Assembly: GCA_902728285.1 (NCBI GenBank)
Contig: CACVBU010000739.1
Span: forward strand, 109,116-173,115
Reading direction: 5' to 3'
Source of the DNA: Clytia hemisphaerica
Lineage: Eukaryota > Cnidaria > Hydrozoa > Leptothecata > Clytiidae
Length of the DNA: 64,000 nucleotides
The position numbers and the translations under genes were made by a program. The notes under the pieces were generated by a model, which did not search any database, was not told the origin of the DNA, and saw only the letters and a program-made list of their open reading frames with translations. Shown here in pieces: positions 320 to 63,010 of the stretch (positions within the stretch are counted from its first letter, which is position 1; each line of letters begins with the position of its first letter).

Positions 320-381
320 CTTAAAATTTAAAAAAGTATTTCTCAGAGTTCTAAATTAAGCATAAAACTATAAATACTGTT

Positions 382-9620: not shown

Positions 9621-11222
9621 ATCATTGAGAGTTCTACGATTCGTGTTGCGATTCATCAAGTCACAAGACAAACGCTTTAACTCGTGAAAGTCATTGTCGA
9701 CTTGATTTTGGTCATGGAAGTTCATTACCTGATAAAGAAAAATAATTAACCTGCTGGTAAAATTGTAAATGTATTGAAAACATTAACATTAAGACATTTT
9801 TGACATAATCTTTGTAAAGTATAATAATCTTGTGAGTGACCCATGGCCTAAGAATTGACACACAAGTATTTAGGCTACTATTCATCAGGGAATTTTTCAA
9901 GCACAAAACTCAATTCAAAGTTGAGTTCTTAAAACTCGATTTTGTGAGGTTAAATAGTTCAGAAAAGCATTTACGAACATCCAGAAAATCCATAAGAATA
10001 TCTAGCCTCGAATGAATCTTGGGTGTTCTAATAAAAAAATCGTATAATTTACCTGATGGTCTCTAAGAAAGCGCTTCATTATCTGACATTCGATGTTTTT
10101 CTTGTTGTTTGGCAAATCACCCAACAGACCGTTATACCTTTCAAATGAAAACAGCCAAAACGAATAAACTGGACCAAACTCTTGCAAACATTCTTTTAAG
10201 TGTCCGTGAAGGTGGATGTTTGGCGTCACTCGATCAGATGTGTACAACCGCTGGAATCTTCTACAAAACCTTAGAAGGAACGTGTCTGCCAGTTCAATAT
10301 CTTCGAGTGTTATTACTCTTGCACAAAGATAGGTGCATGCAATTACGAACAATCTCCAGCATTCTAAATCAGCTTCAGGGATTATACCTTTTAGTGCATA
10401 TATGGAGTAGATAAGTGTACAATTCTTCAATTCATCGGCTGTAAATCCATCAAAACCACTTTCCAATTTTGTTGGAAGTTTTCCGACGTCTGATGACACA
10501 ACAGCTGAATCTACACGTGATTGAAGAACTGGGAACGTATGATGATCCAGGTAACCATTTTCTTTCCAAATCTTGATCATGAGTTTAGAAGTTCCTAGAT
10601 AAAAAATCGTAAGTCTTAAGAAATTAGTGCATCGACATTACCTTTACTCATGAGTGGCAAAGGTATGGTTTCGACGATTGGCCCTAATGAAAGAAATCCA
10701 GATTTTTGCACTGGTAACAAATAACTACTGTCGTATACAGTGAACAGTGAAAATAAAGAAGTAAACATTTATAAAAATATCCAATATTAACTTTCTGACT
10801 TAATATAAATCAGAAATATTAGTTAAACTTTTTTCTATCGAAATTCGAGCTTCCGAGCTGCCTTCCGATTTATGGAGAATAACAAAATTTTAAATCGAGC
10901 AAATACATACCTAAGAATAAGTTATGCATCGGATCAACTACTGACATCTTGATTAGGTCCACATAAGGGAGTTCAGTGAGGACTGAGTATCTTGTACCAT
11001 ACAAGGATTCGAGTCTTTGCTTTTCACCTATCGTTTCTGCTCTCTTGATTTCCTCCATCTGCCTCCGATGTCCTTCATTTGTTCTACTTCTCCATAAATT
11101 TCTATCAAAACCACCACAATTTCGTCCTGGAAATTCTTTTTCACATTTTGAGCATCCTTTGACTGCAGCATGACCTAAAATAGTCAAGTTGTATACAAAT
11201 ACTTATGAGTCTAAAGCGTGCA

Positions 11223-18914: not shown

Positions 18915-20836
18915 TCACAGGTCTGTTTCTTTGAAAACACCAAAATCATCCTTTCTAGATGATCTTGCTGCAGTAAAATCATTTGCAATATCGACTAGGG
19001 AGAGAGTATCTAAAATCTCTTTATGTGTGCTCAAAATTGCCAGTGAATTGAATCTTTTCTGGGACATAGTGCTCCGTTGCCAGGTCTTTAATCTACGAGC
19101 CATCGAAAAGGAACGTTCCGGAGTTGCAGATGTGGCGCCATTTGTAAGAATGATCTTGACAATTTTCACAACATTTTTGATCAAAGCTATTTTATTTTTC
19201 ACCGATTTAAGATGTTTCACTATATCATGAAAGCTTTTAACGCAAGAGCCCTTGAACAGGTATGGTAACAAATCTAATTCGGAGCTTAGCAATAAATCAT
19301 CATAATCTCCCTTGTATGTTTCAGCTAAGATTTTCCTTTGCGAAGAATAATCTAATCCTTTAATTGCTTTTATAAGTATATCTTCTATATTCGAAAAGAT
19401 TTTGTATCCTGGCTGGTTGAATCTGTCGTTGATCGAGTTGATAGCGTCGAGTGCATATAATGATCGTATGGTGTTAAAGATGTATAGCTTTCGAATGTAC
19501 TCTTGACGCCGTCCAAGTAAATAAGAATAGTTTGGATTCTTTCTTTTTCTCGGTAAGCTCGGTGCTCCAAGACCTGTAATCTCACTCGCCTCTTTCTTCA
19601 CAGTTTCGCAGAAGCACTGAAACATATCATCTTTTCTCATACCTTCCAAAGTTTCAATGACTAAAGCAGCTTGTTGTTTCCCATCAATGGCTGACATACT
19701 TTCCTTTTGAAGTGTTTTAGAGAGATTATCTGTCATCCCATACAACTTTCTGCCTAGTTGTAATCAAATGAAGAAAGAAAACAATTTCATTTGTTTCTGG
19801 CAACCGACTTTGCGAGCTTTGGTATCCGTATCCAACTTATCTTCCAAACACTCATCACACAGTGTAAGCAGAGGTGGGTAATTATTTATGATTTTTTGGA
19901 AACAGTCTGCACGTATTGTCCAGCGTGTGACACTTAATTTATCAAGCTTTCCAGGGGCAGATCCACTACTTTCTGATAATTCACCTTTGACGTTTTCCGA
20001 TAATTTACCCAAAAGCTGCTCTCGCTTCGGAGAATACTTCACAAGAATGCATATTTCACCGACAGTCCCCATAGTACAACGAAGAACATTACACTCGCTT
20101 GTTAAGGATTTGACGGCAAGGCTAAGACTATGTCTAAAGCAATGCGTTGCTATGGCTTTTGCTTGTTCGGCCAAAATTTGTGTTGCTACTCCCGAGCACT
20201 TCCCCATCCTATTCGAGACTCCATCATACGTTTGTCCCCTACAGTTTTCAAGACTTAAGTTAAATCTCAATAAAATATCTTTAATTGAGTTCACGATCGT
20301 TTCGCTCTTTATTTGGTCAACTCATAAAAACCGAGGAAGTCCTCTTTCACATCGTCATCATGTCGTCATCCACGATGCGGATACAAAACGACAACTGCTA
20401 TTTAAGATTTCATTCTGGCTGTCATGATGGTTGTACTTATAACCACGTTCCCCTTCCAGAGTTTTCAAAATGTTCCGATCTTTAGTTCCGAGTAAATAAA
20501 GCAGCTGGGTAAAATTATCTTCTTCTTTAGCGTAACCTTGAAGAGCAATCCCTTGTCTACCCAAATACTTAACACATCTGATGACGTCTAACAAATACTT
20601 CCGTCTCTCTTCTCTTACTTCTGTCAGCTTGTTGTCAATTCCCCAACATCAGGACATTTCGGGACAATCACATGATATGAGGCTGCGTCTCTATGACATG
20701 CCGTGGCTTGGTGTGTTGCGAAACAGTTTGGTGCTTTGTTCCATGTTGAGAAACCTCTAAAAATATAGGCCGAATCCTTTTTGGTTTGATCTTTCAAATT
20801 CCCCTTGATTTCTTGTGTACGACAGTAGTCAGAACT
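18915..20836 (-). pseudogene. hAT transposase of the TTF-finger/DUF4371 type, frameshifted
   Basis: Read from about 20836 downward, the frame has a TTF-type finger region (YIFRGFSTWNKAPNCFATHQ then ATACHRDAASYH). After a frameshift it has VRCVKYLGRQGIALQGY-like sequence at 20594-20358 (IRCVKYLGRQGIALQGYAKE). After another it has the catalytic-domain segment CRGQTYDGVSNRMGKCSGV, ATHCFRHSLSLAVKS and a KLDKLSVTRWTIR stretch (20294-19764). The last ORF (276 residues) ends with the hAT dimerisation signature ATSATPERSFSMARRLKTW, RFNSLAILSTHKE. Length and order match ZMYM1-like or TTF/DUF4371 hAT proteins, which cut and paste with 8-bp duplications. At least three frame breaks make this copy inactive. 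Element ends were not located. Confidence 0.78.
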
Positions 20837-30987: not shown

Positions 30988-31122
30988 TTACAACTGTATA
31001 AGACCGCTTCGAAAAATGGCTTCTGTTGAAGAAAACGCCTGTAGTAAAAGACAAACAGCAGATAAGTACCTAAACTCGCAAAAAAGGCTCTTGTTCTAGA
31101 AATTCTGAAGTAACTTCTAAGC

Positions 31123-31585
31123 TAGCCTGTACCAAACCCGCACAGCAAGACGACCTTTAAAAAAATCTTGCCGTGTGTGGGTTTGTAAGGTTTAGACATT
31201 TTTTTTGTGTTGTATAACTCCAGATTTGGGGTTATTAAAAACAATGGAGTGTTTGAAAAATTCATCACGCATTTGAAAGATTTTCTTTGTTAATGAAATG
31301 TCATTTCTTATATGTATTTTTGTGAAAACAATTTACGTGAGAATCAACTTTTTTATCATGCAATTATGTCATAAAAAGTTCTAAAATAAATAGTTTTACG
31401 ATATACCCTTGTATATACTTTTTATAAAACAATGTCTCAAGAGAATTGAACTTGGCTTTCAATTCCATGTGACAATAGAGTAGAGAAAGAGTCTTTTTGA
31501 AAACACGCTTACACACAAAATCTCTCTAAACGTAACAAACCCTTCTATCGTCAGCTACATAAAGAAGTAAGGTTTGGTACAGGCT
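31123..31585. mobile_element. MITE with TAGCCTGTACCAAACC ends
   Basis: TAGCCTGTACCAAACCCGCA at the left and, in reverse, TAGCCTGTACCAAACCTTAC at the right. CTTCTAA occurs two bases before the left end and directly after the right end, so a duplication of about 7 bp is possible. It lies in the last intron of the 14-exon gene. Confidence 0.65.
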
Positions 31586-32057
31586 ACTTCTAATTTTACG
31601 AAATTTTCAAACCCACCCGGACCCCCATTAATTTAAAAAATATTTTGATTGTCAAGGAAAAGCTTCCTCACGTCAGCTATTTTGCCCTTTTCCCAGTGTT
31701 TCTGAAAAAAAGTTTCTAATCCAAAACTCAGAAAAATAATAGGTACGGTGGGGGTGTTTCAAATAGAATTTACCTGCTGATATATTCTTTTTTCACCGAC
31801 CGAAGCCAAACTTTGGTACTCATGTTCTATTGCAGGAGTTAGAGTCATATTATCAACGACTCTAAATGTTGGTGGCAGAATAATCCCTGAAATAAAAGCA
31901 TTGATGTCATCAACTAGAATTATTCAAACGTTTTATCTGCGCTGATATTTTTGGAGAATGTATCAAAATAAAAAAAAATAAGATTAAATTGTGTTTAAAA
32001 AATACTATTAGTTAATTAAGAAAAAAAATATTACTATGTCGATTTTCGAAATAGTAG

Positions 32058-32365
32058 CACTGCATGAAAAACTGGGATTTCCCAATTCTGCACTGTACGT
32101 AAATTTGATTTATTTTGGCATTTCCCAGTAGAAATATCATTTCTTGGAAATATGATATTTCTTTTGTAGTAAATATAAAATAAACACATGTTCATTCATA
32201 TTTTCACATGCCGAAATTTCACATTCAGACATTTCCTCAAAATAAATATCATATTTACTACAAAAGTAAACGCGACAGAAATTTCACATTCAGACGTTTT
32301 CTGACCTTTCTCAAACGGATTTCTACAGATTTAAGAAAACCGAAATCCCAGTTTTTCATGCAGTG
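32058..32365. mobile_element. CACTA-type MITE, 308 bp, TAG target duplication
   Basis: Ends are CACTGCATGAAAAACTGGGA at the left and the same twenty bases in reverse at the right, followed by TTTC on both sides. TAG flanks both edges. CACTG termini with a 3-bp duplication are the mark of EnSpm/CACTA elements. Inside, the words ATATTTACTACAAAAG and CTTTTGTAGTAAATAT form a second inverted pair, and TTTCACATTCAGAC occurs twice. Confidence 0.75.
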
Positions 32366-32993
32366 TAGCGCATTGACGCATACACTTCTTCTATATTTGC
32401 ATAATCGAAGTCTTGAGCTCGAAGATTTGGAAACTCTTGTAGCTGACAGACTAAAAAATAAATTTAATCACCAGATTAAACACTGTTGATGGTTATTTTA
32501 GAAACACAGTCTCTTAAAATTTTTTTTTACCCCCTTGTAGTTTAAGAAAAAACTTGGATAGTTTTATTTTATTTTTGTTGTCAATGTTTTGATATTTTGT
32601 TCCTAGAATAAAGCGTCTATGTGGGTTTAGTCCCAGGAACAACCAGACTAAAATAGATGACTTTAAAGGGGGATGAGTGGTTTTAAGGGTATATCCCCCC
32701 TGAAAATCATACCTAGTGTCATAACATGCATTAACTTTGACGTAGAATCATCGTTACATCTTCGTATTATCTTGTTATTGTTTATCGCCATGCCTGTTTA
32801 TCAGAACATTTTAAAGAGAAATTCCTTTCGACATTGGATGAGAATGACGACAAACAGATGGTCTTCACCATTCTTCTTGAAAAAGTGCATTATTTTTAAA
32901 AAAACCTTTTTTATTGCAAAGAAATTCCATCCCCTGCAAACAGGCTAATCTACATAAAACTCAATTTGGAGCATCCAAAATAGAGATTAGTAC
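32366..32993. other. Intron sequence, nothing recognised
   Basis: This lies in the intron between exons 12 and 13 of the 14-exon gene. Short open frames here do not look like protein. Confidence 0.4.
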
Positions 32994-34483
32994 CTGTTGC
33001 AATTCTTGTTGCTGCTTCTTCGGGTATGTTAATCCACGGAAACTTGCAACCTAAGAGAGCAACACATATTACATTCTAACTTTAATGGTATGTTTTATGA
33101 AACGAAGCATAAAGAAAAATGCTTTTTCATAAATTTTGACATTTTGATCAAAATAAAATAAAAGTAAAATCAAGTAAAAGTTTTGACATAGGTAGACAAC
33201 AGTCCAGCAGTTAAAAACTGCTAAAATTTCTTTCCTTAAGGTAATTGCCAGATTCAGTCAGATACTTACATTTTCGAGAACTTGTTTTCTTGGTGTTAGT
33301 TAAGTCTCTCAAAGTTGCTGTTGACTCGAAACAAAATTTTGCATTGACATCATAAGTCTTGGTTCCAAATTGCTGAACATCTTAATAACCTAAATGTTAA
33401 AAACCAAGTATGAATTCTAAACGATTATTTTTGAACATGAAAGAAAGAGAAGAAATTTTGGCGAATTTGGAAAAAACTGCCCAAATTCACTAATATTTCT
33501 TCTCGCCAAAGTTAAATTTTTAGGTCAATCGCTCGCCAAAATTTCTTCTCTTAAGGTATTTATTCAAAAAATGACAAATGAAAAACAAGAATGTGAAGTC
33601 GTAAAAACAACTTTTGATTTTAGTACTTTGGTTAGTGCACAGAGTAGCCACACTCTTTTAATGAGAAAAATATTTTTCCAGTTGTTGAGAGATAACCTGA
33701 TATCAGCTGTGGAGTTTTCTTAACACGACACGCTGAAGCCCTAAAGATACTGTCAGAGCCATAAAATAACTGATTGCTTTTAGCTCTAAAAAGGTACTTT
33801 TTTCCATTTTACCCAGCCCTATATCTGAAAATAACTATTTTTCTGTCTCTGTGACCACCCTGTAATGAGATATTGGTTTTTGGACCACCTCAAGAATATC
33901 TCTTTAAAGTGTTGAACTTTCATTTCAAGATATTAAATAGGTTTCTTTTAGAAATCTGCGGGCTGAAATGATCGTGAATGTTCTTACTTGGAATCTGATA
34001 TCTGGTAAACTTCTTAATTTAGGTATGCGAATTGCTAGACATTGTACATTTTCTGGACCAAATGTGATATTAGGATTCAGTCAAGTTGCCACCTAATAAA
34101 AGAAAAAGTCAATCAATCGTAATTTTTTACTGTTCTCAAGTTTTTTTTGACAAAACTTTTGTAAAATGGAAAGGGAACTTCCAAAAGATTTTCAAAATAT
34201 ACTGGCAGAAATTCAAAGAGATTATCCTTCCTGGTAAACAAATTTCAAACCTGTGGATCACTTTCTGCCAGTGCTGCAATTTCATTGAACATTCGGTATA
34301 TTTCTGTTGAGTTTTAAGTGAACACGTTGCCAGGCGGTACAAATAATTGTTTGAATATGTTCGCTGGGTCAACTACTATGTTTTCCCAGATCATCATCTG
34401 AATTTCAAAAACAAAGAAACTTCATGATTAAATAAAATAGCTGTTCAAAAAAGATTGTTTTCCCAATATTGAAGTGAGCTAAA

Positions 34484-34654
34484 GGGGCCATCCATATAGT
34501 ACGTACGCAAAGATTTTCCAAATATTTGACTCCCCCTCCCCCCTTGTACGCAGAGAACAATAGAAATGACTTTATATATATAAACAATAGATGTACGCTT
34601 TTGCTAAACCCCCCTCTCCCCCCTTCACTGCATACGTACTATATGGATGGCCCC
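34484..34654. mobile_element. Short MITE with GGGGCCATCCATATAGTACG ends
   Basis: GGGGCCATCCATATAGTACG then TACGC at the left, and the same twenty bases in reverse then TATGC at the right. 171 bp. AAA flanks both sides, a possible 3-bp duplication. The interior carries CT-rich tracts (CCCCCTCCCCCCTT). It lies within the intron between exons 8 and 9 of the 14-exon gene. Confidence 0.7.
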
Positions 34655-37156
34655 AAACCCCTGGATTATGGCCAAAAGACTGGACTTTCTAAAGTTAAAG
34701 TTTCGCTATTTTTCAATACATTCCCAGTATTTTCTACTTAAAAAAAACCCTATGAATTTATCTCAACTTTATTTGAAAAAATCTCACAACCTTTTAACTT
34801 TCCATTACAGGGTTCCAACCACTCTGGAAAGATTTTCCCTGACTTTTTGCTACCTTAAGGGAAGAAATTCGCAGAATTTAATTTTGCAGTTCAGGGTTTG
34901 AAAATGGAAATTTAATTTTGCTGTCAATAGGATTTTGCCGTAAATTTACATACTTTAATTTAAATACTGATACATTTTACTATTAAAAAGAGTAACATAC
35001 CACAAAAATTGTGATTATGTTGGAGGCAATTGCTGAAACCACCCTTGAATTCAGTGTACTATCTTTCCGTTTGACTTCTTTGGAAATTATTTCCATGTGG
35101 AATGCCATTAATTCGGAAACAAGTTGATGGTTGTGGCATGCCCAAGTTATGAGGAACCCCTGTAAGTCAAGAAAAAAAGAAAACATACCGGTATGCATTT
35201 TAATCAGCTAAGCCATATCAAAAGTACAAAAAGATACTAATGAAAAAGCTGTGTTATTTATTTATCATTTTATTTGAAAATTTTGAGACGAGAGGAATGT
35301 AATGCTAATGAAATACATGTGAGAGAGGCTGTGAATAGCGAATGACTCTGAATAATGGAGTTTCTTTTTTTGAAGGATATAATTTCTTTTAAGAAATTTT
35401 TAAGGTCACTATACCTTGTTTTCTAAAGCAAAATCTGGCAATTCGATATCAATGACATTCTTCTCCTCTTCTGTCAAGGCATCGCTACGCCCTCTGAATG
35501 TGACCATTCGTGTTTTCAGTCTGTATAAAAAAATATTAAAATTTCTATGAAGCAGTAAAATTGACTGGCAGATCGACCCTCCTCCAAAAGGTAGGGTTTG
35601 GTACCACAAACCAACAAGATTAGCCTCATATACTTTAAAATTGATTGCTTCTTTATGGAAAAATAATTAGACTATAGTATAGTATAGCCATATATTTAAA
35701 ATTTTAGACAATGTCATTATATATAAAGTACCGCTCGTGTGGTTCTGTGTCATTGCTTGTAACAAAGACACATGCTTCAGGGTGCATCAATCCTCTTGTC
35801 ACTGATCCACAAGCAAATCCATCATGGGTCTGTTGGAGGTTGCTGGCAATGATGGGGGATGTTATCTTGAGTTCGTTGATAAGAACAACCAGGTTCGTTT
35901 TGGACAGAACTTCAAGCTGTTTATTACTAAAAAATAAATTGTTTAAACATCAACACTTGATCTTTGAGCAAAAAATCATTAAAAAAAACATAGAGATAAT
36001 TAGAGTTAATTTTAATTTCTCAGGAGCATTGAATATTATATTGTCTAATTTAATTTGAGACATTTTGGAGAGTGAAATTTTGGCAAGTTGATGGCATTTT
36101 CACTAAAATTAGGGAAAAAATGGCAAATCGAAATTTTCTAAAATTAATCCACGCTCAACTTTTGAAAAACATGAAAGCAAAAAATATTACATGGTTACAA
36201 ACTTAATGTTGTCTTCCCATTTCCCTTCTTTTTGCAAAAATTTATCCACAGTTAATTTTCTGAAATGGCGATTCTAAAAAATATCAACATATTTCTTAAA
36301 TTGCGGTAAAATTTCTACTCCAATTAAAGTAACATCCATCAACGGGCAAATTGTTTTAAAAAGAAGTGAAATTAATAAAAACCATTCTGTTTACTTTGAA
36401 GTTCCAGATCCAAAGCCATCTCCTCCAGCCATCACCAAAGGGTGATTTGTGTTTTCCATTCCTAACCCGCTGGCAATGATACTCATGATTGAAGATTTAC
36501 CAATAGATTGTCCTTGGCTACTTAGTGCTGTATATTTTGATTCAGCTGTAATAAAGATTAAAAGTTGTGGTGGAGTCAGATAGGACAAATAAACACTTGA
36601 AGTTTGCAAAAATATCTTTTCAACTGATATGCATGACTTTTTGTGCACTTTTTATAATTTTGGTGTACTTTTTATATATTTTTGCGAATATACTTTTTTT
36701 TGTGTGTTTTTTCTTTTTAGAAACCGAGTATTGAGAAATAATATTTGTCAGAAGGAGTAAGAATAAGTAATATGGAAATCATGGCTGTATGGGGTTTTGA
36801 AATACAGAAATATTAGGCTACTTTTCTTGGCACATCTGGTATTTTGGACTGTAAACAATCTCAAATGCTAAATTTATTGTAACAATATTTGGTGAAACTA
36901 CTAACAAGCTGGTAATATTGGTCCATTCATGGGCTTGCGTAGTCTGGTCAAAATAAACCCAACACACTGAATGACAACCATATTATTGATTTTGAAATCC
37001 TTAGTGTGAAGTAGAAATCTGTAAAAAAATAACGGAATATTGTATTAGGGTGAACTTCTAATATTTTTGAAATAAATTAATGATTAACAACCCTTTTCAT
37101 ATCTTGTAAAGTAACGGAAGAATCGAATCACAATTGATTGATTGTGTTCAATTCAT

Positions 37157-37290
37157 AGTGCGGAAAGGGGTCTGATCCCTCCTTGCTACCCCCCCCCTTT
37201 TTTAGTGAAAATCTCTGATCCTCCCTTCTTCATCTTTTTGGAAGCTGTCATCCCCCCCCTTAAGAAAGGGGGGGGTCCGAACTATGCAAT
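37157..37290. mobile_element. Possible short MITE with C/G-run interior
   Basis: CATAGTGCGGAAAGGGG at the left and, in reverse, CATAGTTCGGACCCCCCCC at the right give 11 matched bases. Inside, C-runs and CCCCCCTTAAGAAAGGGGGG form a hairpin. The short arms make it uncertain. Confidence 0.35.
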
Positions 37291-38084
37291 TTCTTTCAAT
37301 AGATTTGATTGTTGACTCTGTTCAATTGTCATTGTCTGGCAATGGGAAAGAGTTTTAAAATAATGTATAAAATGTAATGTAGAGATTCAACATTCTCAAT
37401 TGAAATAATCAATTATTTAATCATAGTCAAATGTGCGCACCGCACTGGGCTCAACTTCAGATTTTCCAAGGCTCCAAAAAGCAAAAATTTTGAAAAATAA
37501 AAGAAAACCCCCCAGAATTTCACCCAAGGAACAAGTGTGCAAAATTTCAGCCAAATCGAACAATTTTTGAAGCGTGCAGTCTGCCCTAAAGTTTTCGGAC
37601 GGACATACATTCTCAGATTATAGCTCATCAACTGATGAGAATATGCTCAATAATTCCCTGCTATCATTCAAACAGAATCCTTACCTTGAAAAAAACATAT
37701 TGGAAGAAGCCAACATCATCAATCAATTTGCTATTCAATGATAGAGAGTAGGGTTCAATATCATCAGCCAGAATATATTCAATATTCAGACTGGGCACCA
37801 GTCTACCATCTTTGATTTGAATCTGTAAAAAGATAAAATTGTTGTTTTATGTGACTGAGGAGAGCACAGAGGAAAACTTCTGGATTTTTAAAATGTTGCT
37901 TTGCAGTCACCCACCAAAACCTGTTTATCGACAAGAAATTTTATCGAAATCTTAAGAGAGTAATTTTATTTTATTTTTTCCAACCCGACCGGACCACCTC
38001 CAAAATATTTTTTTTCTCTATTTTCTATGTGGTTGAGTTGCAGGATGCTGAAAAGCCTATTTTCACAACTATAAACACCAAGTT

Positions 38085-38262
38085 AGTGTCCCGTCAACAC
38101 CTTGGACTGACTACCCAATTCCCCTCACATGGCATGGGTTGACCCGTGCGAGGGTTTGCTCACTTGCCAAGTGAGCTGTCGTGAGTGGGAATTGAACCTT
38201 GATCTCCTGTACAGGAATCAAGGTTGATGACAACTGTACCATGGCACCCTGTCAGTTCAGCC
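38085..38262 (-). mobile_element. tRNA-derived SINE, family 2
   Basis: On the minus strand GGGTGCCATGGTACAGTTG resembles an A-box region and AGGTTCAATTCCCAC a B box, with a GTACAGGAGATCAAG stem before it. The body has CTCACTTGGCAAGTGAG. It differs from the SINE at 39019. It lies between exons 3 and 4 of the 14-exon gene. Confidence 0.5.
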
Positions 38263-39018
38263 AGTTGAAGGCAAACCAACATTTTCCAACCATATAATGT
38301 AAACCCCTTTTGAATCCTGCCAACTCAAATAAACTGTGAATTGCAAATTCAACTTACATCATTGGATAAGACCACAGTGTTGCCAATAACGCCCAAATAA
38401 CTTGCATATTTGAATACTCTACCGAATACTGGATCCACCTTCTTGTAAGTATTGGAAATACTGTGAAAGTATTTCACTGGAAACAAATGACTCCACATGG
38501 ATGATCATTGCCTCATCATACAACTTCACTTTAGACCAAAATACATTTCTTTATCCAAAATCTTGGAATTTGAATTTGGCTCGCCTAAAACAAAAAGAAT
38601 ATTAAAAGTTTCTTAAATCTTGAATTTTCCACAGCTTTCTAAAAAAAGAATCATTAGATACTTATCACAGGGACTATATTAATTTTGATTTTGAAAAATT
38701 GGGTTGATTTTTATGGGAAACAAACTTTTGCACCTTTTCACATAGTTTAAGCCTATTAAGACCCCTGGACCAGAATTTTTTACATCATTGTTGGGTGACA
38801 TGTGACTTACTGTCAAACAGTGATACATTGCACTTCACTGCCATACTTTGCACTGTGTATTTTACTGAATAGCGATATGTACATTTCAAAAACAAAAGTG
38901 AATTTTTGTTATGTTTGGATTTGTAATTGATCACACGTTTCAATCTGTAAAAATGAGATTCAATCTGATGACAGAAAGTTTATGAGGAAAACAAAGGAAA
39001 TGAGGTGAGTGCAAAGTA

Positions 39019-39470
39019 TGGCAGAGACAGTGGCCAAGTGGTAGAGCTCACCTCCCGTTTGCAAGGTTGTGGGTTCAACTCCCAGCCAGGTCAGACCAAA
39101 GACTTGAAAACTGGTACTCCTTGTTGTCCTGCTTTGCACTCAGCATTAAAGGATAGACTTGCAGTTAAAGAGGCAGCCATGTTGAATAATTATGTACTCA
39201 TTCATAAAAACAATGATACAGCCATGCATAATTACTGTATCGTGCATATTTTAAAAATTATGCACGGCTGTATCATTGTTTTTATGCTGGAGTACATAAT
39301 TATTCAACATGGCTGCCTCTTTAAAAAAAGGTCTATTAGAGCGAGGAGAAGTGGAGAAATCCACGGAAAGGAGTGGCGCCCTCCCCTACCTTTGGGTAGA
39401 CAACTATCGAAAAGGGTCGCCCTCGACTGCGGTCACAAAACTTACTTTTTACTTATGGCAGAGAAGTGCA
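39019..39470 (+). mobile_element. tRNA-derived SINE, family 1, interrupted by a hairpin MITE
   Basis: The head has an A box TGGCCAAGTGGTAGAGC (from 39031) and a B box GGGTTCAACTCCCAG (from 39071). The body resumes after the insertion with GTGGCGCCCTCCCCTACCTT, GGGTAGACAACTATCGAAAA and GACTGCGGTC. The copy at 46155 (minus) shares head and body with no insertion. Pol III-type promoter boxes drive such elements. Confidence 0.7.
39169..39320. mobile_element. 152-bp hairpin MITE inside the SINE, TTAA duplication
   Basis: AGAGGCAGCCATGTTGAATA on the left repeats exactly in reverse on the right, and pairing continues through ATTATGTACTC and CAGCCATGCATAAT inward. TTAA stands at both edges (39165-39168 and 39321-39324). 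A TTAA duplication suits piggyBac or Kolobok mobilisation. The whole element could fold as one hairpin. Confidence 0.75.
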
Positions 39471-39527
39471 ATGTATCACTGTTTGACAGTACTGATGTAA
39501 ACAAGTGATACTTATGATAGACCTACC

Positions 39528-39572
39528 TGGTTATCAAACTGACAATAATTAAACATTAAACATTTTCAATGT
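39528..39572. repeat. Exact 45-bp direct repeat, left member
   Basis: Starts TGGTTATCAAACTGACAATA and ends CATTTTCAATGT. It is identical to 40335-40379, 807 bases downstream in the same orientation. A related phrase TTATGCTTATG follows both a short way on. Confidence 0.85.
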
Positions 39573-39737
39573 TAAAGGACATTATGCTTATGAAAAGTGT
39601 TTCTTATAAATGATGATGCAAAAGTTGGGTTTATTCATAATCAAACATTTTATAACTCCACATACAAGAGTAAAATATCATGTAAATCAAACCATCTGAA
39701 TCGAAAAACTGGTTTTTTATTGGTGTGCTTAGTATAT

Positions 39738-39888
39738 GTAATCACATGATAACGAGTGCAATTCAAGAATAATTGCACGAGTTATTCTTTTTGTTATTAA
39801 TTTTAATTATTTAATTATTAATTCGAAAATTCGAAACAAAAAAGTCACGAGTGCAATTTTCGAATTGTACGAGTTATTATGTGATTAC
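39738..39888. mobile_element. MITE with GTAATCACAT ends and internal palindromes
   Basis: GTAATCACATGATAACGAGT at the left and, in reverse, GTAATCACATAATAACTCGT at the right, then GTRCAATTCG on both. The interior repeats ACGAGTGCAATT and AATTGCACGAG. Non-coding; target duplication unclear. Confidence 0.6.
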
Positions 39889-40334
39889 GAGCTAATCGCA
39901 CAATGACTTTCACTACTTTTTCCCAGTTAGGAAAGTAAATTACAGAAATTACACTGAGAGTTTTATATTTTTCTCTTCTCTCTGTGTCTTTCTTTTTTTG
40001 TTTTGTTTCTCACAAAATAAATTTCGAATGCAATTAAAACGTTCGATGCAAAAAAATGCAAGAAAAAACATTAAAATCAATTTGTAAACATTGGCGCGCT
40101 TGAAGAGTGTGATTAACGATTAATTGCTCTCTACAGGATGCAAATAACGATTAATTGCTCTCTTTGAGGGCGTGCCAAATAAGAAAAAATAACCCATCGT
40201 GCGATTATAAAAAAAAATCAAATTAGGGTCAGTTTCTTATAAAAAACACTTCAAGTGACCCAATGTTCCAAACCGAAACTCAAAGCCTTTCTTGAAATTC
40301 AATTTCATGACTAAATCATAACAACCAATCATAA

Positions 40335-40379
40335 TGGTTATCAAACTGACAATAATTAAACATTAAACATTTTCAATGT
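40335..40379. repeat. Exact 45-bp direct repeat, right member
   Basis: Identical to 39528-39572. Together they bracket a segment with a MITE (39738-39888) and a doubled word TAACGATTAATTGCTCTCT (about 40111 and 40147). They could be the scars of a segmental duplication or the ends of an insertion. Confidence 0.85.
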
Positions 40380-41494
40380 CACAGTAATAATGAGCAATCA
40401 AGTTAAGAAATGCTCTTATTATGCTTATGTAAAGTGCATAATTTTTTTGAATTACGGGAAAGGTGTATTCTAATCGTTTCATTGCGTTCGCTTAAATTTG
40501 ATTAATTTGGAATTATTTGAAATGATAAAATATGCAACAAAATGGAATAAAACTACTAAAAATACCTTGTTATTAATTGACCGGAAATCACATTTAATGA
40601 CGTTAGAATGCAGATCAGTTGAACTTCTACACCAGCTTCAATGATACCCACTTTTCTTAGGGCAAAACTAAAAATTTTGGCCATCTGCCTTTTCTTTTGT
40701 CCATTCCAATATGTTATGCCTTTCTGATTTACAAATTCTTGGTCATTAGATCCCTAAAAAGAGAGGTTGAGGTGTGAAAATCTAATATCAAAGGCTTTTA
40801 ATTTGACTTAACTGACACCAAAATAATTTTTGAAATATTATAAAATACACCTAGCTGTGTGCAATATCATAACATGCTCTAATGCTAACCCTCATGTTCT
40901 AAATTTGACATGAGCTGAATGTCACGTTTGGTTTTTAAATAAATTTTTCATAATAAAGCCTTTGCATATAATACAATTTTGATCTATACTTAAAAAAAAA
41001 TTAAATTACACGATTTTTTTTTTATAAGAATGGTGTAAATCCATTTCATCATGGATATTCTTAACCTTTTGGTCGAAATCATCATATAACATTCTTAAAA
41101 TATTCTTAAGGTTAATTTTTAGATTTTACCAGTCATAATAGTCTCAAAATCATCGGAAAGTAATGTAGAAATAGAAGACTTTTTTATGTGTATGCATAAA
41201 AAACAAAAGAATAAGTACAATGTAGTACAAGCTAATCCACAAGTAAAAGGTGTGGAAAGGAACAGCTAAATCAGCTAGTAGAGAAGGTTTTAGATGCATT
41301 TGAAAATATTTTTGAAAAAAAAATAAAATTTTTATGATGGCAATATTCTTACGATATTCTTAGTTTTTTGGCTATTTTCATATTATGGACATTCTTATAA
41401 AGTGCATTCTGCAAAAAAGACTGCAGTTAAATGTGTAAAAACTTACATAGTCACTTAGAAAACTTTCATTGCAATCAACATTCCCATTTGCCAT

Positions 41495-41989
41495 GATAGT
41501 GGTAAGGTTGAGTTTCAGCGGTTAGAGCTAATATATGTAAGTGCTGAAAATATGTCTTATATAAAACCGTGCTTTCGTCCACTGTCCACCAAGTTTTTCA
41601 CAGAAAGAATTCAGCAAATGCAAATTATTGTAAATAATTTATAATGGTGCTCACACACACCGTGAATACTTTAAAATTTTCCGAAAACAGCTAGTGTGAC
41701 CATTACAACAAATTTCCCGCGTTTTTAAAACTCTGATAAAAATCTCTACTTCACTCATCTTTCGTTAATAGTAAAGACCAACCAATGTTCAATCATTCTA
41801 GCAATAAAATCAAATTATTACTATCGATAAAATAATAAATAGCACTAAAACAGATTAAATTATAAAAAAGATCACATAAAATTCACATTGTTATCCACAT
41901 GTTCCAAAAAGATAGATCTATAATCCTGAAATTGTACAAGAATTACCTTTTATCAGTGTAAAACCTTCGCGGTCGTTTCAACAGTGGCA
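41495..41989. promoter_or_regulatory. Shared upstream region of two divergent element genes
   Basis: About 500 bases separate the minus-strand start ATG at 41494 and the plus-strand transposase frame that becomes visible near 42000. It contains TATAAAAC-like words near 41556 (TTATATAAAACCG) and AT-rich tracts. I cannot assign promoters; the position alone suggests a bidirectional one. Confidence 0.25.
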
Positions 41990-44900
41990 AAGAAAAAACA
42001 TGACACACGTGAGTCTGTGAGTGTTGGCTAAACCAAATGCTGATAAAATCTACTTGGATAAAGACAATCAAAAAATGTATCGACTTGGCACAGACTCTTG
42101 ATGCCGTCGTTTTACAGCTGGACCCAAAACAAATATGGCACGATGTTGATGATGTATACTCATTTTTTGTCCCACCTGTCCTGGTATGGGATCCTGTTTC
42201 CAACACAAAGAAAAAACATCCAATCATATGCCCTGAACATGGCTGTGAAATATTTTCAACAAATCAATGGACCAACTCAGACACTGATAACTCACGACAC
42301 CCACGAAAGCTTGTCGATTCTACTGGCGGAATGCTGTTGGTTGGCAGAGTTTACAAATGTTTTACAGGAAACCACTTTTTACGTACAACATCGAACAGCA
42401 TTATACAACAGTGGTGATCTTTCCCACAAAACAGCTTTCAAAAGTGAGTTTGTAGACACATTACATCAGTATGTTATGAATGGGTTTTCATTTTCTGAAA
42501 TTGTGAATTTATTGAAAGAGCCAAGTAAAAAATGATTAGCCATCCAAATTCAAAAATACAAACAGGAATGCTTTGTCCACGGAAAAACCCCCGGTATTGG
42601 AAAAATTAAAGAAATTTCTACACTTTGGATGAAACTTTTACCTAAACGGGACTTCCTTGAAGATCTATTTGAAGCTGGTTTCGAAAAAATAAAGAAAATT
42701 TGATCAAAGAAATGTCAGCATTACCAGCATCCATTGTGACTATTGACCATACTTTTAAGGTAAACTTTATTATAACACTTTCCAACAACTTTTATGTGGA
42801 AATACAAAATATTCCGTTGCGTCTAAAAATCTTCTTAAAATTGATGTAAAATTGATGAAAAATTCCGACAATTTTCCGAGTCGTCCGACTAGGAATTTTT
42901 GTCTGCAAGTTAGTCGGTGTGCGGCGGCTGCGAACAAAACATATTTTTGATTGTCACCTTAGTTTTATCTTGTGAAGGGCCTGGTTGGGGAAAATGATTT
43001 TTTTATGGTTAGCTAGCTCGTTTATTAGGTAGACGTCCAACCAAAAAAAGAAGTATTAATGATTTCGCCTCTTTTGGTTGAGTGCTGTGGAGGGAGAGTA
43101 GGCTAATGCATGTGCTAATGCTAGCAAGCACTTCAGATGAGAATCCTCCCTGCCCCCCCCTCATTGAGTGAAGTTTTCTTGAATTCAACTGAATGCTATT
43201 TTTTTATGAAGATAATCTGACTGTCCAGACACTGTTTGTATACCTACACATTTTTTATAAGCAACTCTATTCTATACAAAGTGTATGCAAAAGAGAAGGG
43301 GTTTTTTTAAGCTTGCAAAATGTTTTTCACATAAAAACTATATTTTTGTGCCTCTTTTGAAAAGGAGAATCTGGTGGAGTACTTCAGGAAAAAAAGAATT
43401 TTTAAGCGAACCGTTCATTTTAAGGTACATTAGGAAGGATATTTAGTAGAGATAATCAACATATAGGAAACTTTAATTTTCTTCCTTTCTTAATTTATTA
43501 AAGAATTCTTACTTTGACAAACTAGCTGCTTTACTTGTCTATTTGCTCAAATTGGAGAGTAACACAATGTATATATCTGAAACATAATTTTTGATTTTTT
43601 TAAAACTAATTTTTACCAGGTTACAACAAATGTTGGCATGTTTCGAAGTGGTGACGAGAAGCATTGGGTCAAACTCTACAATTCGTTATTCATTGCATTG
43701 AATGAGAAAAAACAAGTTCTCACTTGGCATTTTACTCAAGGCGAAAAGTTTGAATTTGTTAGAGATGTTCTTACAAAACTCAAAGAGAGAGATAATATAG
43801 TTGTCATTATGTTTCTGGTGGATAACTGCTGTAAGTTGGAGTTACCGTTAAAAGATGTGTTTGGGGATAAGATATTGGTGAAATTAGACCCATTTCATGC
43901 TATTCAAAGAATTACAAGCACCATTAGAAAGAAACACCCATTTCACAAAGAATTATGTAATGATTTAAGAAATTTGCTCCGGGATTATTTGGATCTTCCA
44001 TCAAAGACTAGAACCAAAGCACCCGCATCTTAGGAAATAATCTTGGAGCGGCTAGTCAAAATTGTTGCTCGATGGGAATCATTGGAATATCTTTTGGAAC
44101 ACCGCTCACTCATCACAGTGGAAACACGAGAAGCAATTTGGAATTTAAGGAAGCATATTCAAAAAAGGGTGCCTCTCTGACATCCCTGCCGGCTGCTCAA
44201 CTGGTGCTAATGAAAACTTACACAGGTAATTATAATTCGTACTAGGATTTTATGCATAGAAAAATCTTTTGCGTTGTGGAATTATCCCTTTGTTCGTTCA
44301 TTCGTTACCACCTCTTCTCGAAATTGGCTCATTATTTTTTCTGAATTTTCTGCACAAAGATAGGTACCCTAAAATCCAAAATTCTTAGGCTATTGTTTCC
44401 AAAATGAGGTTATTTAAGGATTCGTTGCAACTGGTTGCAGTCAAAATATTGAATTTTTTTAATTTTTTGTATTTGATTAGGCTAGCATCACAGGTAAAAG
44501 ATGCTCAAAGAAATTTTCTTTGAAAGTTTTTTCCGGCTCAGAAATGGAATTTTTATCTACTTTATTGCATGAAAATTTTGTGGGCATTTTAATTTTGCGG
44601 TTTTTTTGCCTAAAATTGCATTTTGTGGTGATTTAATTTTGCGGTATCCAAGAAAAAAAGTGTATTTTGCTGTGTTTTTTGAAAAATTACTCAAATTTCG
44701 CGATTTTTAGCTAAAACTTGCATTTCGCGGTTGAGCTCAAAATACATTTTTCGCGGCATTTTAATTTCACGGTTTTTCTGACTAGACCGCGAAACTGCAA
44801 AATTTTCATGCAATAAAGTACTCTATAGAATTCTTTTGCTGAGCAGTAAAAGAGAATTCTTTTGCTGGAAAATGATTTTCCAACGTGTGTAGAAAGTTTA

Positions 44901-45745
44901 TGTCATTTCAGAGTTAATGCCATTTTTGCATGTTTTCGCTGAATTTATTTTTGGCGTTGCCTAAAGTCTTCTGATTCTTAGCTGCATCTGCTCTTAAGTG
45001 TAAAGATTTGTTGAAATGGAAAACACCAGACTATAGTTATGATTCTCACTTTTCATTTTGTAGGTATCTGAACAAACTCGTGAAGGGCCAAACAATGGGA
45101 CCAGAACTGGCAGAAGCGGTTTTTACCGTTTTTTTCAACAGATGGAACGCAAAGCGTGAATCCGAAAATGATGGTGATAAAAGCGATCTAAGCGATACAG
45201 ATGATTTTGGGGATCAGCCAAAGACCACTGAAAAATTTGGCTTTGAAGGTTCAGCGGCTCAGAGTCTTTCAAGTTCCAATATCAACCATGAAGGTAAATG
45301 GACCGAATCTAAATCAACACCAGGCTTTCACAAACTGGTCAAAAGGATCACAACCTTTCGTTTATTGTAGGCTTGAAACCCTTGTGCCTCCTACCTGATG
45401 AATGTCGTCAGCCGATCTGATCTTACCGTTCTTTTGAAAGCATGTGGGCAACAGGATAACAACCGTAATAATGCAAATTCTTTTGGCTAATCGGTTACAG
45501 GCAATGGGGGGAATTTGCATGATTTATTGGCACACAAAATCATTAAATTACTCACCTATTCGAGCTACAGTTCTGTTGTCAACCGTTTACAAGCTAAAGG
45601 TATCACTCAGGTGTCTAGTACCAAATCCATTTCTGAAAATCTTGGTGCAGCCTGTGGTGGCGATCTAAAGCGGGCTGCGGATTATTTGGGTATCACTTTG
45701 ATCCTGTTTACAGACTTATCTGATGTATTGTATATTTTCGATTGA
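41990..45745 (+). pseudogene. DDE-type transposase of unassigned superfamily, three exons, damaged
   Basis: Exon 1 has a zinc-binding-like front part (FVPPVLVWDPVS, HPIICPEHGCE, RHPRKLVDSTGGMLLVGRVY, then HRTALYNSGDLSHKTAFKSE in a shifted frame) and ends SIVTIDHTFK (donor AAG/GTAAAC near 42761). Exon 2 starts at 43620 (VTTNVGMFRSGDEKHW) with NIVVIMFLVDNCCK, VKLDPFHAIQRI and, near its end, GCLSDIPAGC followed by GANENLHR. Exon 3 starts at about 45064 (YLNKLVKGQTMGPELAEAVF). D in DHTF, D in VDN and E in NENLH would be the D-D-E triad; this is inference from spacing and conservation. The C-terminus (45480-45745) has NLHDLLAHKIIKLL and ADYLGITLILFTDLS. Damage: TGA near 42532, TAG at 44031, TAA near 45490, a slip at an A run at 44161. 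Phase is kept across both introns. I could not place it in a named superfamily. Confidence 0.62.
44558..44820. mobile_element. Mariner-type MITE in the transposase intron
   Basis: TACTTTATTGCATGAAAATT then TTG at both ends in inverted orientation (23 bases identical). TA sits at each edge. The interior is full of TTTTGCGGT, TTCGCGG and CCGCGAAA words. 263 bp, non-coding, in the intron before exon 3. Confidence 0.8.
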
Positions 45746-46154: not shown

Positions 46155-46415
46155 GTAAGTAAGTCTGCGACCGCAGTCGGAAGCGACCCGAAGGCTCCTC
46201 TTTCGATAGCTATCTACCCGAAGGTAGGGGAGGGCGCCACTCTTTCTCCCTGGATTGCTCCACTTACCCTTGATCCTTCTCTTAGTTGCTGAGCATTCAA
46301 GCAGAGAGGCATCAAGTACCATTTTGGGAATCTTTGGTATGACCCGGCTGGGGGTTGAACCCACAACCTTGCGAACCGTAGCCGGAAGCTCTACCACTGT
46401 ACTACGGTCGCTACG
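46155..46415 (-). mobile_element. tRNA-derived SINE, family 1, uninterrupted copy
   Basis: On the minus strand: AGTACAGTGGTAGAGC (A box), GGGTTCAACCCCCAGCCGGG (B box), then the body GTGGCGCCCTCCCCTACCTT, CGGGTAGATAGCTATCGAAA and GACTGCGGTCGC. It matches the SINE at 39019 at head and body. Its 5' end abuts a (CTACGTA)n run. Confidence 0.75.
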
Positions 46416-49971: not shown

Positions 49972-52664
49972 CTATTCAAATCTATTCCTCATTTGCATCT
50001 TCTCCATTTGCACCAATCTGGTTTGTTCGCCTTTTTTCAGTGATCGGCTGTCAACAACTGTCCAAGACGGCATCCTTTTTTCTCTGTGAACACCTTTGGT
50101 ATTACCAGTTCGAGTGGGTGTTATGAATCTTTGAACACGGAGAGCATTTGCAGTGTACCCAAACTGAAAAACGCTAGGTGTTGTATTGAAGCCAAAAATG
50201 CATCTTTGACGACCAAAATATTCTTCTAAAACATCTTGACAAACCTCTCTGTCAGTACAAATTCACCACCACTTTTAAGTGGAATTTAACTGATTCAACA
50301 AGTGAGCTAACATTTATACATATACCTTCATAGGTTTGATAAGGAATAAACATTCTCTCCTTTTCCTTATCAGTCTTATCTGTTATTGAGTAAACCTTCC
50401 TCTTCCAACTATCAAAATAACCCAAAAAAAACGTTTTGGAGCCAATCAAGTCTCCAGTCATTTTGATCTCAGAATGGTTCTAAAAAGATTTTTCTTTTCA
50501 ATTTTCCTTCCTCCTGAGACCTGATGTTAAAACAATCGAAAAAACAATCCATGTATTGACAGAGGTCAGCTGTGGTTTTGTACTCAGGGTAGTAGCGATA
50601 GATGACACTTGACATTTTTGAGCTCAAAACCTGTGTTGCAAGACTGACAGTCATTGAAGAGTATGAAGTTAGGTTGATGTGTGCCAGAGATAATTTTGGC
50701 AGCAACTTCAAACTGCGATACATGTCATCTTGAACCACATGCACAATTTGATTCCATAAAATTTCCGTTCTACAAATCTCTTGTCCCTATGCCATCCCTG
50801 CGAGAGTGGTAGATAGCATTTCGCATAGTTTTCATAAGATGTGGAGCATCTGAGGAAAAGAAAATGAACCTTCTTTCTGGGGAAAATATATTTATTGTCC
50901 TATAAATTACACTGGAGAAAGACTGAGATAACTCTTTGTGGCATTTAAAAAAAGCCCTGTCAAATGAAGCCCCATCTGACACAGTGACAATTACTCTTAA
51001 CTTGCAAGTCAGCTCTAGTACGGAGACAGCTCTCCAAAAAAGTAACATCAATCTAGAGCCCGTGGGACCAACAGTGGCAAAGTAAGCGAAGCTGAACTTA
51101 AGATCTGTTGATATACCTCGCACATAAAAGACAAGACAATGAGTTGCAATAGTATCTGATTCTTTAAAAGTAGAGTAGTTAATATCAGGGTCCCCAAGAC
51201 CAACAAAACCGATAAGTTCCCCAGTGTGCTTATCAAGAACAAGGTCTTCTTGGACTTTCAATTCATCAAAAGACAATGTGATGTTCTTTTGGTGGCCTTC
51301 AAAATCTTTTGTCAAATCTACCAGTTCTTAAACAACTTCATGATTGGACCCAACGGTTGGTCGAATGGCATTTTTGTAGTCACGGAGAGTTCTTCTGCTT
51401 GGCAAGACTAAAACTTTGGAATCTCGCAGCTCATCGTAAGCCTTGGCTGACTTTGAAGCTAAAGACAGTCAAAAGTGTATCATCATGGGATGGTAAACGT
51501 CTTCCATTGGATTAATCGGATTCAAAATTCCTTGTTTTAGCCAAGTTTTAGGAAATTGACTGAGAAAAAATCATTTCTTTTTCTGTTATCCTTTAGAGAG
51601 TAAATAAAAATACATTCTGTGAAAATTTCAAGTCTGTAGCACTTTCCTATTCGGAATTATCTTGATTCCGATTTAGAGGGATCTGAACCGGGATGAGGAC
51701 GGGATAGAGGGATCTCTCGAAAACGAAAGTGCCCAATAACTAGTGAACAGTTTGATGCGACAAAAAACTTTTTTTCTTACTTTTACACTGCTATAAGGAG
51801 ACTTTATATACCAAATTTAATCTCGTTATGAGCACTACTTAAGAAGATAAAAAGGAAAATTAGCCAAAATAATCCCGATTTTACAAAAGTTCCAATGAAA
51901 GATCACTGTGTTTCATGAAAGGCGAAGAATCTTCACTTTGGTTTTTCATAATGGCATTGATATCATCAGCCATACCAGACGAAACAGCAATACCTTTAGA
52001 CTCCATTTCATTTTTGAGGTGTTCAATATCAATCGTTAGCTTCTTTGTTAGGGCCCTTTCTTGTTGCAGGGCTAAGATGACTTTCTGCGGGTTCCTCTTT
52101 GATAGTGGTGCAAACTTGGAAGCTGGAGTGAGGTTACTTTTGTCTTTTACATCTTTCTTCTTTTCTGAGGAATTACAAATTCTACATATTTCTCTACTGC
52201 CTGCAACTAGAACTTCGCAAACATCACTTCTATAACGAATCTCTGACGGAACTTGAACTTCTTTGTCATATTTAAGAGGGATGGCATGCAATGTTGACTT
52301 TGGAGCAGTGGCAGAAGAAACACCTTTACAAAGTTCTAATTTGCAAAATATCAGAGCAGAAGTCAGTTAATAAGATCTTCCTGATGGACCGGTTATGCTG
52401 TTTGTAAACATTGTGATCATCAGGCAAATACCAACCGTATACCCTCACTGTGAAATCAAGAGATGAGTTTATAATGATTTCAAGTTTTGGTAAGGGAAAC
52501 TTGGAATCCTCAAGCTCATAAGTGAGAAAGCATTGCTCACCAGTGAAAACAACCTTCCAATTAGAATGTTTCCACTTCGAACATTGACTCTTGAAATCCT
52601 CATAAGTTTCAAATACAACAACCTTAACATCAGTTTCTTCTTCAACCGCTGGTACAACTAGCCT
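49972..52664 (-). pseudogene. P-element-like (THAP9-related) transposase, THAP exon missing
   Basis: From 52664 downward: SSLDFTVRVYGWYLPDDHNV, the segment that follows the THAP domain in this family. Then a charged region (52291-51881) with REICRICNSSEKKK and a coiled-coil ILALQQERALTKKL. Then LVLPSRRTLRDYKNAIRPTV, and the catalytic core LSFDELKVQEDLVLDKHTGE, LIGFVGLGDPDINYS, VIVTVSDGASFDRAFF and FFSSDAPHLMKTMRNAIYHS (51315-50770). After a frameshift: LHINLTSYSS-like text (LAHINLTSYSSMTVSLATQV), and after another: YFDSWKRKVYSI, MFIPYQTYEG. The end has DVLEEYFGRQR, TTPSVFQFGYTANALR and stops at 49972. D in FDE and D in SDG fit the RNase-H-like triad. In-frame TAA and TGA near 51330 and 51480, plus two frameshifts, inactivate it. 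Confidence 0.78.
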
Positions 52665-57333: not shown

Positions 57334-58382
57334 GAAAAGAGGTGACTTCACAGGATCTGGTTAAAATCAAAATCATCACCCACAAACAGACGTCAAGCAA
57401 GAATCCGATATGTAATCGCGAGGAACCGTGTCAATCGAAAGATGGCACTTGCAAAAAGGGAACACGATCTAGCCATCGGTGAAAACTCAAAGAGAAACCC
57501 AAAACCGTTCTGGTCACATGTCAGAGGCAAACTTAAATCAAAAAGTGGAGTTTCCCCTCTTCTTGAAACGCCCGATGACAAGACATCCCTAAAGCACGAG
57601 GACCAAGAAAAGGCCAACATCCTGCAGAAACAATTTTGTAGTGTCTTTACTAAAGAACCGGAAGGTGATCTACCTGATTTCGACAACAGAACAGATAAAA
57701 TACTTCAACCACTAAACATTACGAAGGAAATGATAACAGAACAAATCAGGAAGCTCAATGCGAATAAATCAATAGGTCCAGATGAGATTCATGCCTCAAT
57801 GCTTATTGAACTTCGTGACCATATTGCAGAACCACTATCAATCATAACGAATAAAACTCTCGAGGAAGGAAACTTACCTAGTGACTGGAAACTAGCATAT
57901 GTGACACCAATCTATAAAAACAAAGGAGCACACAACCTTGCTATTAACTATCGCCCCGTAAGTCTAACTTCAGTAGTCTGTAAGTTGATGGAAACAATGA
58001 TACGAAAACATATCATGGAACACCTTATCAGCGAAGAACTTCTATCGAACAAGCAATACGGTTTTATCAACAAAAGGTCAACAGTCACACAGCTTATCTC
58101 CTTTATAGATATGTGTTGCAAATCAACTGCAAAAAGTGAAGTGGTTGACTGCATATACTTCGACTTTGCCAAGGCATTTGACACGGTACCCCATCGAAGA
58201 CTTATGATGAAACTAGAACGCTACGGGATAAACGAATTAATTCTGAACTGGATCAAATCTTTTCTATCGAACCGCAAGCAATTAGTGAGTGTTAATGGTG
58301 CAAAATCATCTTTAGATCCAGTGATAAGTGGCATTCCTCAAGGAAGCGTGCTCGGTCCTCTGCTTTTTGTTATTTATATTAA

Positions 58383-62533: not shown

Positions 62534-63010
62534 GACTCGGGCCCAGCCCTTTAGGTGCACACATCTTTCAAAATGGTAGACGTTTTGGTGGTACTCTGTG
62601 GGCTTTTTTGTGTTTATCCATGCTTTATGACAGATTTTTGGATTGTTTTGGTTCTTTTACATGCAGATTTTATCTTTATATCCATGTTTTATGATATTTT
62701 GATATGGTGTAGAAGTCTGTTTACGAATTAATGAGCTATTAATGTCTTAAAAACACTATCTGGTGTAAAATTATTTCAAAACAAAATTTAGAATATTATA
62801 AAAGCCTTTTTGTTGTTGATTTATAGCATTATATTTCTGAATTCTTTTCTATTTGGGCTGTATCTGCTTATATCTCTGTACTTTTATGATCCAGTACTCT
62901 TAATAATAAATGTGAAATGTGATATTAAAATGTTTTGATGTTTTTATTCTCTAGATTAAAATTGAAAAAATACGTATATATATTCAACATTCAAGTAGTA
63001 ATATTCAACA
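62534..63010. other. Non-coding stretch before the THAP gene
   Basis: No gene seen. TTTATCCATGCTTTATGAC and TATATCCATGTTTTATGAT recur about 65 bases apart. It may hold the promoter of the gene at 63011; AATAAA-like words are also present. Confidence 0.35.

Follow-up and report, generated by a model that had tools for sequence, protein, structure and literature searches.

To whom does a gene belong that ordinary annotation passes over: to the host genome, or to a mobile element residing in it? This question is raised by a stretch of 64,000 nucleotides from the hydrozoan Clytia hemisphaerica (hereafter the window, meaning this whole stretch), which covers positions 109,116 to 173,115 of contig CACVBU010000739.1 in assembly GCA_902728285.1 (G000:C514:109116-173115; the parent assembly comprises 417 Mb in 951 contigs, and C-numbers denote contigs and loci there). 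Its minus strand contains a predicted ATPase gene that is invisible to annotation because no Pfam family covers the ATPase and because its exons are too short for a scan of open reading frames. Here we argue that this gene is probably one of the two genes of an old, repeated DNA transposon of the DDE type with an AAA+ ATPase as an accessory protein. The copy in the window is a decayed representative of an ATPase gene that recurs beside a cut-and-paste transposase gene in a repeated family of mobile elements, which suggests that these elements have an ATP-driven helper of their own.

The predicted gene and its copies

Fifteen protein-like segments, each bounded by AG and GT, follow one another on the minus strand from an ATG at 41494 to a stop at 30988. 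The original prediction had described 14 exons with the reading phase kept at 11 of 13 joints; the spliced series and both of its ends stand, the number of segments is 15, and a recount from segment lengths and frames finds the phase preserved at 12 of the 14 joints, those between exons 4 and 5 and between exons 11 and 12 being broken. The segments, with what was found for each, are as follows.

41447..41494, minus strand: ATPase exon 1, with the ATG at 41494; first exons of C914 and C473 equivalent, none matched directly at the peptide level
40566..40753, minus strand: ATPase exon 2; C281 84%, C374 40%
38358..38584, minus strand: ATPase exon 3; a stop and a frame change break this copy; matches C281 and C374
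37685..37822, minus strand: ATPase exon 4; 3' joint out of phase; matches in other loci, AG acceptor checked
36906..37018, minus strand: ATPase exon 5; C473 44%, E 0.002
36395..36545, minus strand: ATPase exon 6, Walker A; homologous loci, motif and acceptor
35732..35926, minus strand: ATPase exon 7, Walker B (NE) and a sensor-like Asn; homologous loci, motifs and acceptor
35415..35520, minus strand: ATPase exon 8, L-x-x-R motif (candidate arginine finger or sensor); alignment and profile
35001..35159, minus strand: ATPase exon 9; homologous loci and splice sites
34251..34397, minus strand: ATPase exon 10, interrupted by a single in-frame stop in the window copy; C125 76%, open in C125
33988..34092, minus strand: ATPase exon 11, one in-frame stop; matches C374 and C193
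33270..33389, minus strand: ATPase exon 12; homologous frame out of step with the phase of exon 11; C374 E 3e-7
32994..33050, minus strand: ATPase exon 13; C663, C374 and C914
31774..31886, minus strand: ATPase exon 14; C374
30988..31038, minus strand: ATPase exon 15, with the stop; position only; 51 bases close to the gene's 3' end are common to C914 and C663

Since the series of segments runs from ATG to stop and yet contains internal stops and frame breaks, the gene is real and its copy in the window dead.

When exons 6-9 were searched against the whole genome at the protein level, 33 matches were obtained, the window's own exons included; after queries from diverged copies had been added, there were 39 ATPase loci, 21 of them in the clade of the window (clade 1) and 18 in a more distant clade. 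Assembly duplicates may be among them: some loci, for instance C554 and C397, do not differ in the exons compared. The copies are dispersed over many contigs, and most are partial or broken where examined. With 39 loci, this is not a single-copy host gene at a stable location.

The original prediction had staked its gene model on a shared order of exons in homologs, and within this genome the order is conserved: for 13 of the 15 exons (exons 2-14), a counterpart was found at one or more other loci, most weakly for exon 5 (best E 0.002), exon 14 (0.004) and exon 11 (0.008). The remaining two exons of the window, 1 and 15, gave no peptide match at other loci of the genome, the first exons of C914 and C473 being equivalent to exon 1 as short initial exons. 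The splice sites recur as well, most of those checked falling at the same residues. An AG stands immediately 5' of exon 4 in all five copies, two bases 5' of where the alignment of exon 6 begins in nine of ten, and one base 5' of exon 7 in 11 of 17, C125 and C281 being among the copies that have none at this last position.

The neighbouring transposase

On the opposite strand, directly beyond the inferred start of the ATPase gene, the window contains the remains of a transposase gene:

41495..42036, no strand assigned: putative divergent promoter region, placed by position, 542 bp between the two inferred ATGs
42037..42759, plus strand: transposase exon with an inferred ATG at 42037, a DUF6729-like region and, at the 3' end, the first catalytic Asp candidate (DHTF; the exon ends DHTFK); frames broken
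43620..44225, plus strand: transposase exon with the second Asp candidate (VDNCC); frame broken
45064..45736, plus strand: remnants of transposase 3' exons; the CXC-like end of C914 was not recognised in the window

The transposase of C914, a better copy, resembles DUF6729 (E 1.4e-4) and MSL2-CXC (E 9.7e-4), neither match reaching Pfam's own cut-off, and the second transposase exon of the window gives a weak match to Transposase_mut (E 0.03). Among the transposases compared, that of C193 is the closest to the window's (about 52%). A literature search found no paper on DUF6729.

How often do the two genes occur together? A genome search with the transposase core gave 52 matches, from which 41 positions, including 10 transposases of at least 50% identity, entered the tally of linkage. 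Of the 21 clade-1 ATPase loci, six have a transposase of at least 50% identity no more than 50 kb away, where about 0.05 would be expected; the window and the query locus C914 are among them, so that four are left without these two. Three more linked loci, C508 and C473 by sequence inspection and C374 with a query from the transposase N-terminus, raise the count to 9 of 21. In the distant clade, a transposase (31-37% identity) was found at up to 50 kb from 3 of 18 ATPase loci (0.13 expected), the members of these pairs (C161, C500 and C788) being separated by 20-43 kb; we take this as a hint only that the pairing may reach a wider group of transposons. The guess of the original prediction, that the gene is an accessory of a transposon and not a host gene, is thus supported by the 39 loci and by a linkage to the transposase that exceeds expectation.

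The two genes are arranged in tandem in C914, C508, C473, C237 and C193, and head to head in the window, C374, C192 and C76. The two reading frames are separate in C914, C473 and C193, where the transposase is closed by a stop of its own before the ATPase of the same strand begins; in C914 and C473, a separate ATG exon opens the ATPase about 0.8 and 1.3 kb, respectively, after that stop. An AG acceptor-like site is found directly 5' of the first ATPase coding exon in both (C914 106711-106740, C473 596680-596699), as would be expected if there were a non-coding exon at the 5' end or if a joint transcript were trans-spliced.

Several repeats accompany these genes. One adjoins the 5' side of C914 and also C125. 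Intron 2 of the ATPase gene (window 39153-39336) holds a near-perfect inverted repeat of 81 bases (89%) with 22 bases between the arms, resembling a small non-autonomous element. Inverted copies of a repeat with tRNA-like text (67 bases at 84%, 45 bases at 91%) are found at 39052-39412 and 46201-46381, where they flank the 5' halves of both genes; ARAGORN found no tRNA in the window.

Motifs, selection and further traces of mobile elements

The original prediction had read QSIGKSSIM, LVVLINEL and FVTSNDTEP as Walker A, Walker B and sensor, and these motifs do stand in this order in exons 6 and 7. The Walker A pattern GxxxxGK[ST] is found in C914 (GEKSVGKSS) and C473 (GDKSVGKSS), the first G being replaced by Q in the window. 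Across eight aligned rows, one of which is a chimera, three features do not vary: GK in Walker A, Asn in Walker B and the sensor Asn. Seven rows have hhhhNE as Walker B and C554 has ND, with Asn at the first acid position of hhhhDE, which suggests altered metal binding by a protein that would retain the catalytic Glu. The spacing is about 50 residues from Walker A to Walker B and about 40 from there to the sensor, and the polar sensor 1 residue and the downstream Arg of AAA+ proteins have their counterparts in the invariant Asn and in L-x-x-R.

Compared by hhalign with nine phage primase-helicases of the P4-alpha type, a cleaned profile of exons 6-8 scored 34.05 (E 8.2e-5, 129 columns), whereas 100 shuffles reached at most 18.7; leave-one-out scores ranged from 25.9 to 38.2. 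The T4 clamp loader gp44 scored 35.3 with the same profile (maximum of 100 shuffles, 19.7), and relatives of MuB scored 21.2 over 66 columns, barely above the shuffle maximum of 19.9. The Pfam AAA family matched C914 with E 0.016, below Pfam's own cut-off, and a search of PDB sequences with the ATPase yielded nothing beyond chance. An AAA+ fold is supported by these profiles, a superfamily 3 (SF3) or D5-type helicase and a clamp loader being not separated by them: since the P4-type and gp44 scores are nearly equal, SF3 is not singled out. Accordingly, of the SF3-type P-loop ATPase that had been proposed, the P-loop, the motif order and an AAA+ profile stand, and the narrower assignment is one of two that fit about equally well; the profile search that had been suggested for it finds AAA+ likeness by hhalign and no SF3 or D5 match in Pfam. 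A D5-like N-terminal domain, considered for its likeness to P4 by eye, was not supported by the profile and was dropped.

The ATPase protein has been under strong purifying selection between old lineages. In exon 6, C473 and C914 differ at 3, 0 and 30 first, second and third codon positions, respectively (49 codons), and in exon 7 at 8, 7 and 34 (63 codons). For the recent copies, the comparison was restricted to homologous DNA. Between the window and C281, exons 2, 4, 7 and 8 show 13, 11 and 6 differences by codon position over 197 codons, and the divergence of the exons (about 5.1%) is close to that of non-exon sites (5.3%), so that constraint is not seen. Unlike this pair, the window and C125 differ at 6 sites over 90 codons (2.2%, versus 8.0% in non-exon sequence), which are too few to judge. 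Constraint between old lineages together with neutrality between recent copies points to the life history of a mobile element, whose genes are selected while it is active and drift neutrally once it is inserted.

The window contains traces of further mobile elements. From 50770-51327 (minus strand) and 63002-63619 (plus strand) come a transposase domain of the P-element type (TNP-like RNase H, E 1.5e-17) and a domain like THAP, the latter below cut-off (E 2.7e-4). A long open piggyBac-type transposase lies at 59269-60732 (minus strand; DDE_Tnp_1_7, E 3.9e-68) and, upstream of it, an open reading frame with Arg/Gly-rich repeats at 60656-61855. There are also a reverse transcriptase frame at 57346-58407 (plus strand; RVT_1, E 2e-24), remnants of a hAT-type transposase at 18915-20321 (minus strand; Dimer_Tnp_hAT, E 3.5e-8), a DUF4218-like frame, as in some DNA transposons, at 10002-10637 (minus strand; E 1.3e-4, below cut-off), and a GIY-YIG nuclease frame at 355-1032 (plus strand; E 2.3e-5); GIY-YIG nucleases of such a kind are carried by Penelope-like elements.

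Proposed role, rival readings and known systems

If the two genes form one element, its transposase would consist of an N-terminal DUF6729-like part, a candidate catalytic core with two conserved Asp residues, and a C-terminal CXC-like cluster of cysteines. The ATPase, encoded in about 15 exons, would form an ATP-dependent oligomer on DNA and act together with the transposase during transposition. Its most likely job would be the assembly of the transposition complex or the handling of its target, by analogy of role, not by descent, with MuB, TnsC and IstB; strand separation, as by a helicase, would be the main alternative, which we rank slightly behind. A bolder version of the proposal, that this is a eukaryotic cut-and-paste family with a dedicated AAA+ regulator of transposition or target selector, the counterpart in role of MuB, TnsC and IstB, kept for long as a two-gene unit that alternates between tandem and head-to-head order, is one that we consider improbable enough to be offered as speculation.

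A number of observations weigh against a two-gene transposon. At C125, C281 and C663, three of the nine loci with at least 20 kb available, no transposase was found in the 20-26 kb examined; conversely, no ATPase match was found on the contigs of four transposases from the same clade (C310, C347, C866 and C45). The gene order varies between loci, and roughly 15-34 kb separate the matched exons of the two genes in C192, C76 and C374. Exact and near-exact scans of the flanks of C914, C473, C508 and the window gave no convincing terminal inverted repeats or target-site duplications that would mark the ends of the element; an AT-rich inverted pair of 20-22 bases in the window (30532 and 48613) was not accepted as terminal repeats. 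As to the ATPase, no family in Pfam, NCBIfam, PHROGs or PADLOC exceeded its cut-off, an earlier profile run with near-identical P4 sequences gave only 13.0 (E 0.015), and a run with an extended profile gave 25.2 against a shuffle maximum of 22.6, both being far weaker. The splicing, finally, is a prediction from sequence.

Could the ATPase, then, be a host protein after all? A duplicated host gene family, found near transposases by chance or because these prefer to insert there, would account for the excess of ATPase loci over linked pairs, for the many introns, and for the four transposases that have no ATPase match on their contigs. However, the linkage is far above chance, the order and strands of the neighbours are consistent within subfamilies, and the copies are decayed and spread over many contigs; we therefore regard such a family as very unlikely, the reading as a host gene having been rejected on copy number and transposase linkage. 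A viral origin was rejected as well: short patterns or tblastn found no relative of the ATPase in viral, phage or prokaryote contigs and none of the transposase in viral contigs, searches in which distant kin could be missed. It is possible, albeit rather doubtful, that the ATPase is a replicative helicase of the SF3 or D5 type and that the element is copied via a replicative step instead of plain cut-and-paste. In the comparison with the P4-alpha type, Walker A, Walker B, the sensor and the Arg fall in register, no shuffle reaches the score, the leave-one-out values hold, and the motif spacings fit; set against this are the equal score of the clamp loader, the N-terminal region of exons 3-5, which does not align with the region preceding the P4 helicase domain, and the Pfam result given above.

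Within the two-gene transposon that we prefer, the head-to-head order in the window calls for an explanation of its own. That a tandem element has been inverted locally, or that two partial elements lie side by side, would be suggested by the tandem order of C914, C508, C473, C237 and C193, the last of which has the transposase closest to the window's. Yet C192, C76 and C374 are head to head too, and both inferred starts are adjacent in the window. Because C374 shares 56% with exon 7 of the window, the order there is probably not a private rearrangement; this is not certain, since in the three other head-to-head loci the matched exons are so far apart. On balance, an inversion or a pair of partial elements seems a less probable, though conceivable, origin of this arrangement.

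How does this family compare with known systems? P4-alpha-type primase-helicases and gp44 share with it the order of Walker A, Walker B, sensor Asn and L-x-x-R over about 125 columns; the similarity is below family level, Walker B is mostly NE instead of DE, and no primase part was recognised. The Kyakuja-Dileera-Zisupton (KDZ) transposons have cysteine-rich clusters beside the DDE core, but no KDZ match in Pfam was seen in any piece scanned. Academ transposases carry a Cys8 zinc finger, and the helicase of the AcademH lineage is of the superfamily 2 type. AcademH, to judge from the passages available and compared by description only, resembles the family of the window as a eukaryotic DDE transposon, and its lineage carries a helicase, Academ target-site duplications being 3-4 or 9-10 bp long (PMC10045372). 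Kolobok lineages, KolobokH among those with an accessory helicase, are likewise described as DDE transposons of eukaryotes that encode an accessory protein besides the transposase, a RecQ helicase being one such protein, once on the complementary strand (PMC9587614); RecQ is not AAA+, and no Kolobok match of the window-family transposase was seen, no direct test having been made. The accessory ATPases described in these AcademH and Kolobok passages are thus helicases of other types. Literature searches for SF3 helicase, DNA transposon and transposase together found none, and no description of an AAA+ partner of a eukaryotic DNA transposon was found in the literature searched, with Repbase and the original AcademH paper outside the search.

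A parallel in role is offered by bacterial elements, namely, Mu (MuA/MuB), Tn7 (TnsB/TnsC) and IS21 (IstA/IstB), in which a DDE transposase is paired with an AAA+ ATPase that gives it control over the choice of target. The parallel is one of role only: the profile score of MuB is well below those of the P4 type and gp44, and common descent is not supported. If the pairing in Clytia is what it seems to be, an AAA+ partner conserved in this way would open regulated target choice, or helicase-assisted transposition, to testing in a eukaryotic element.

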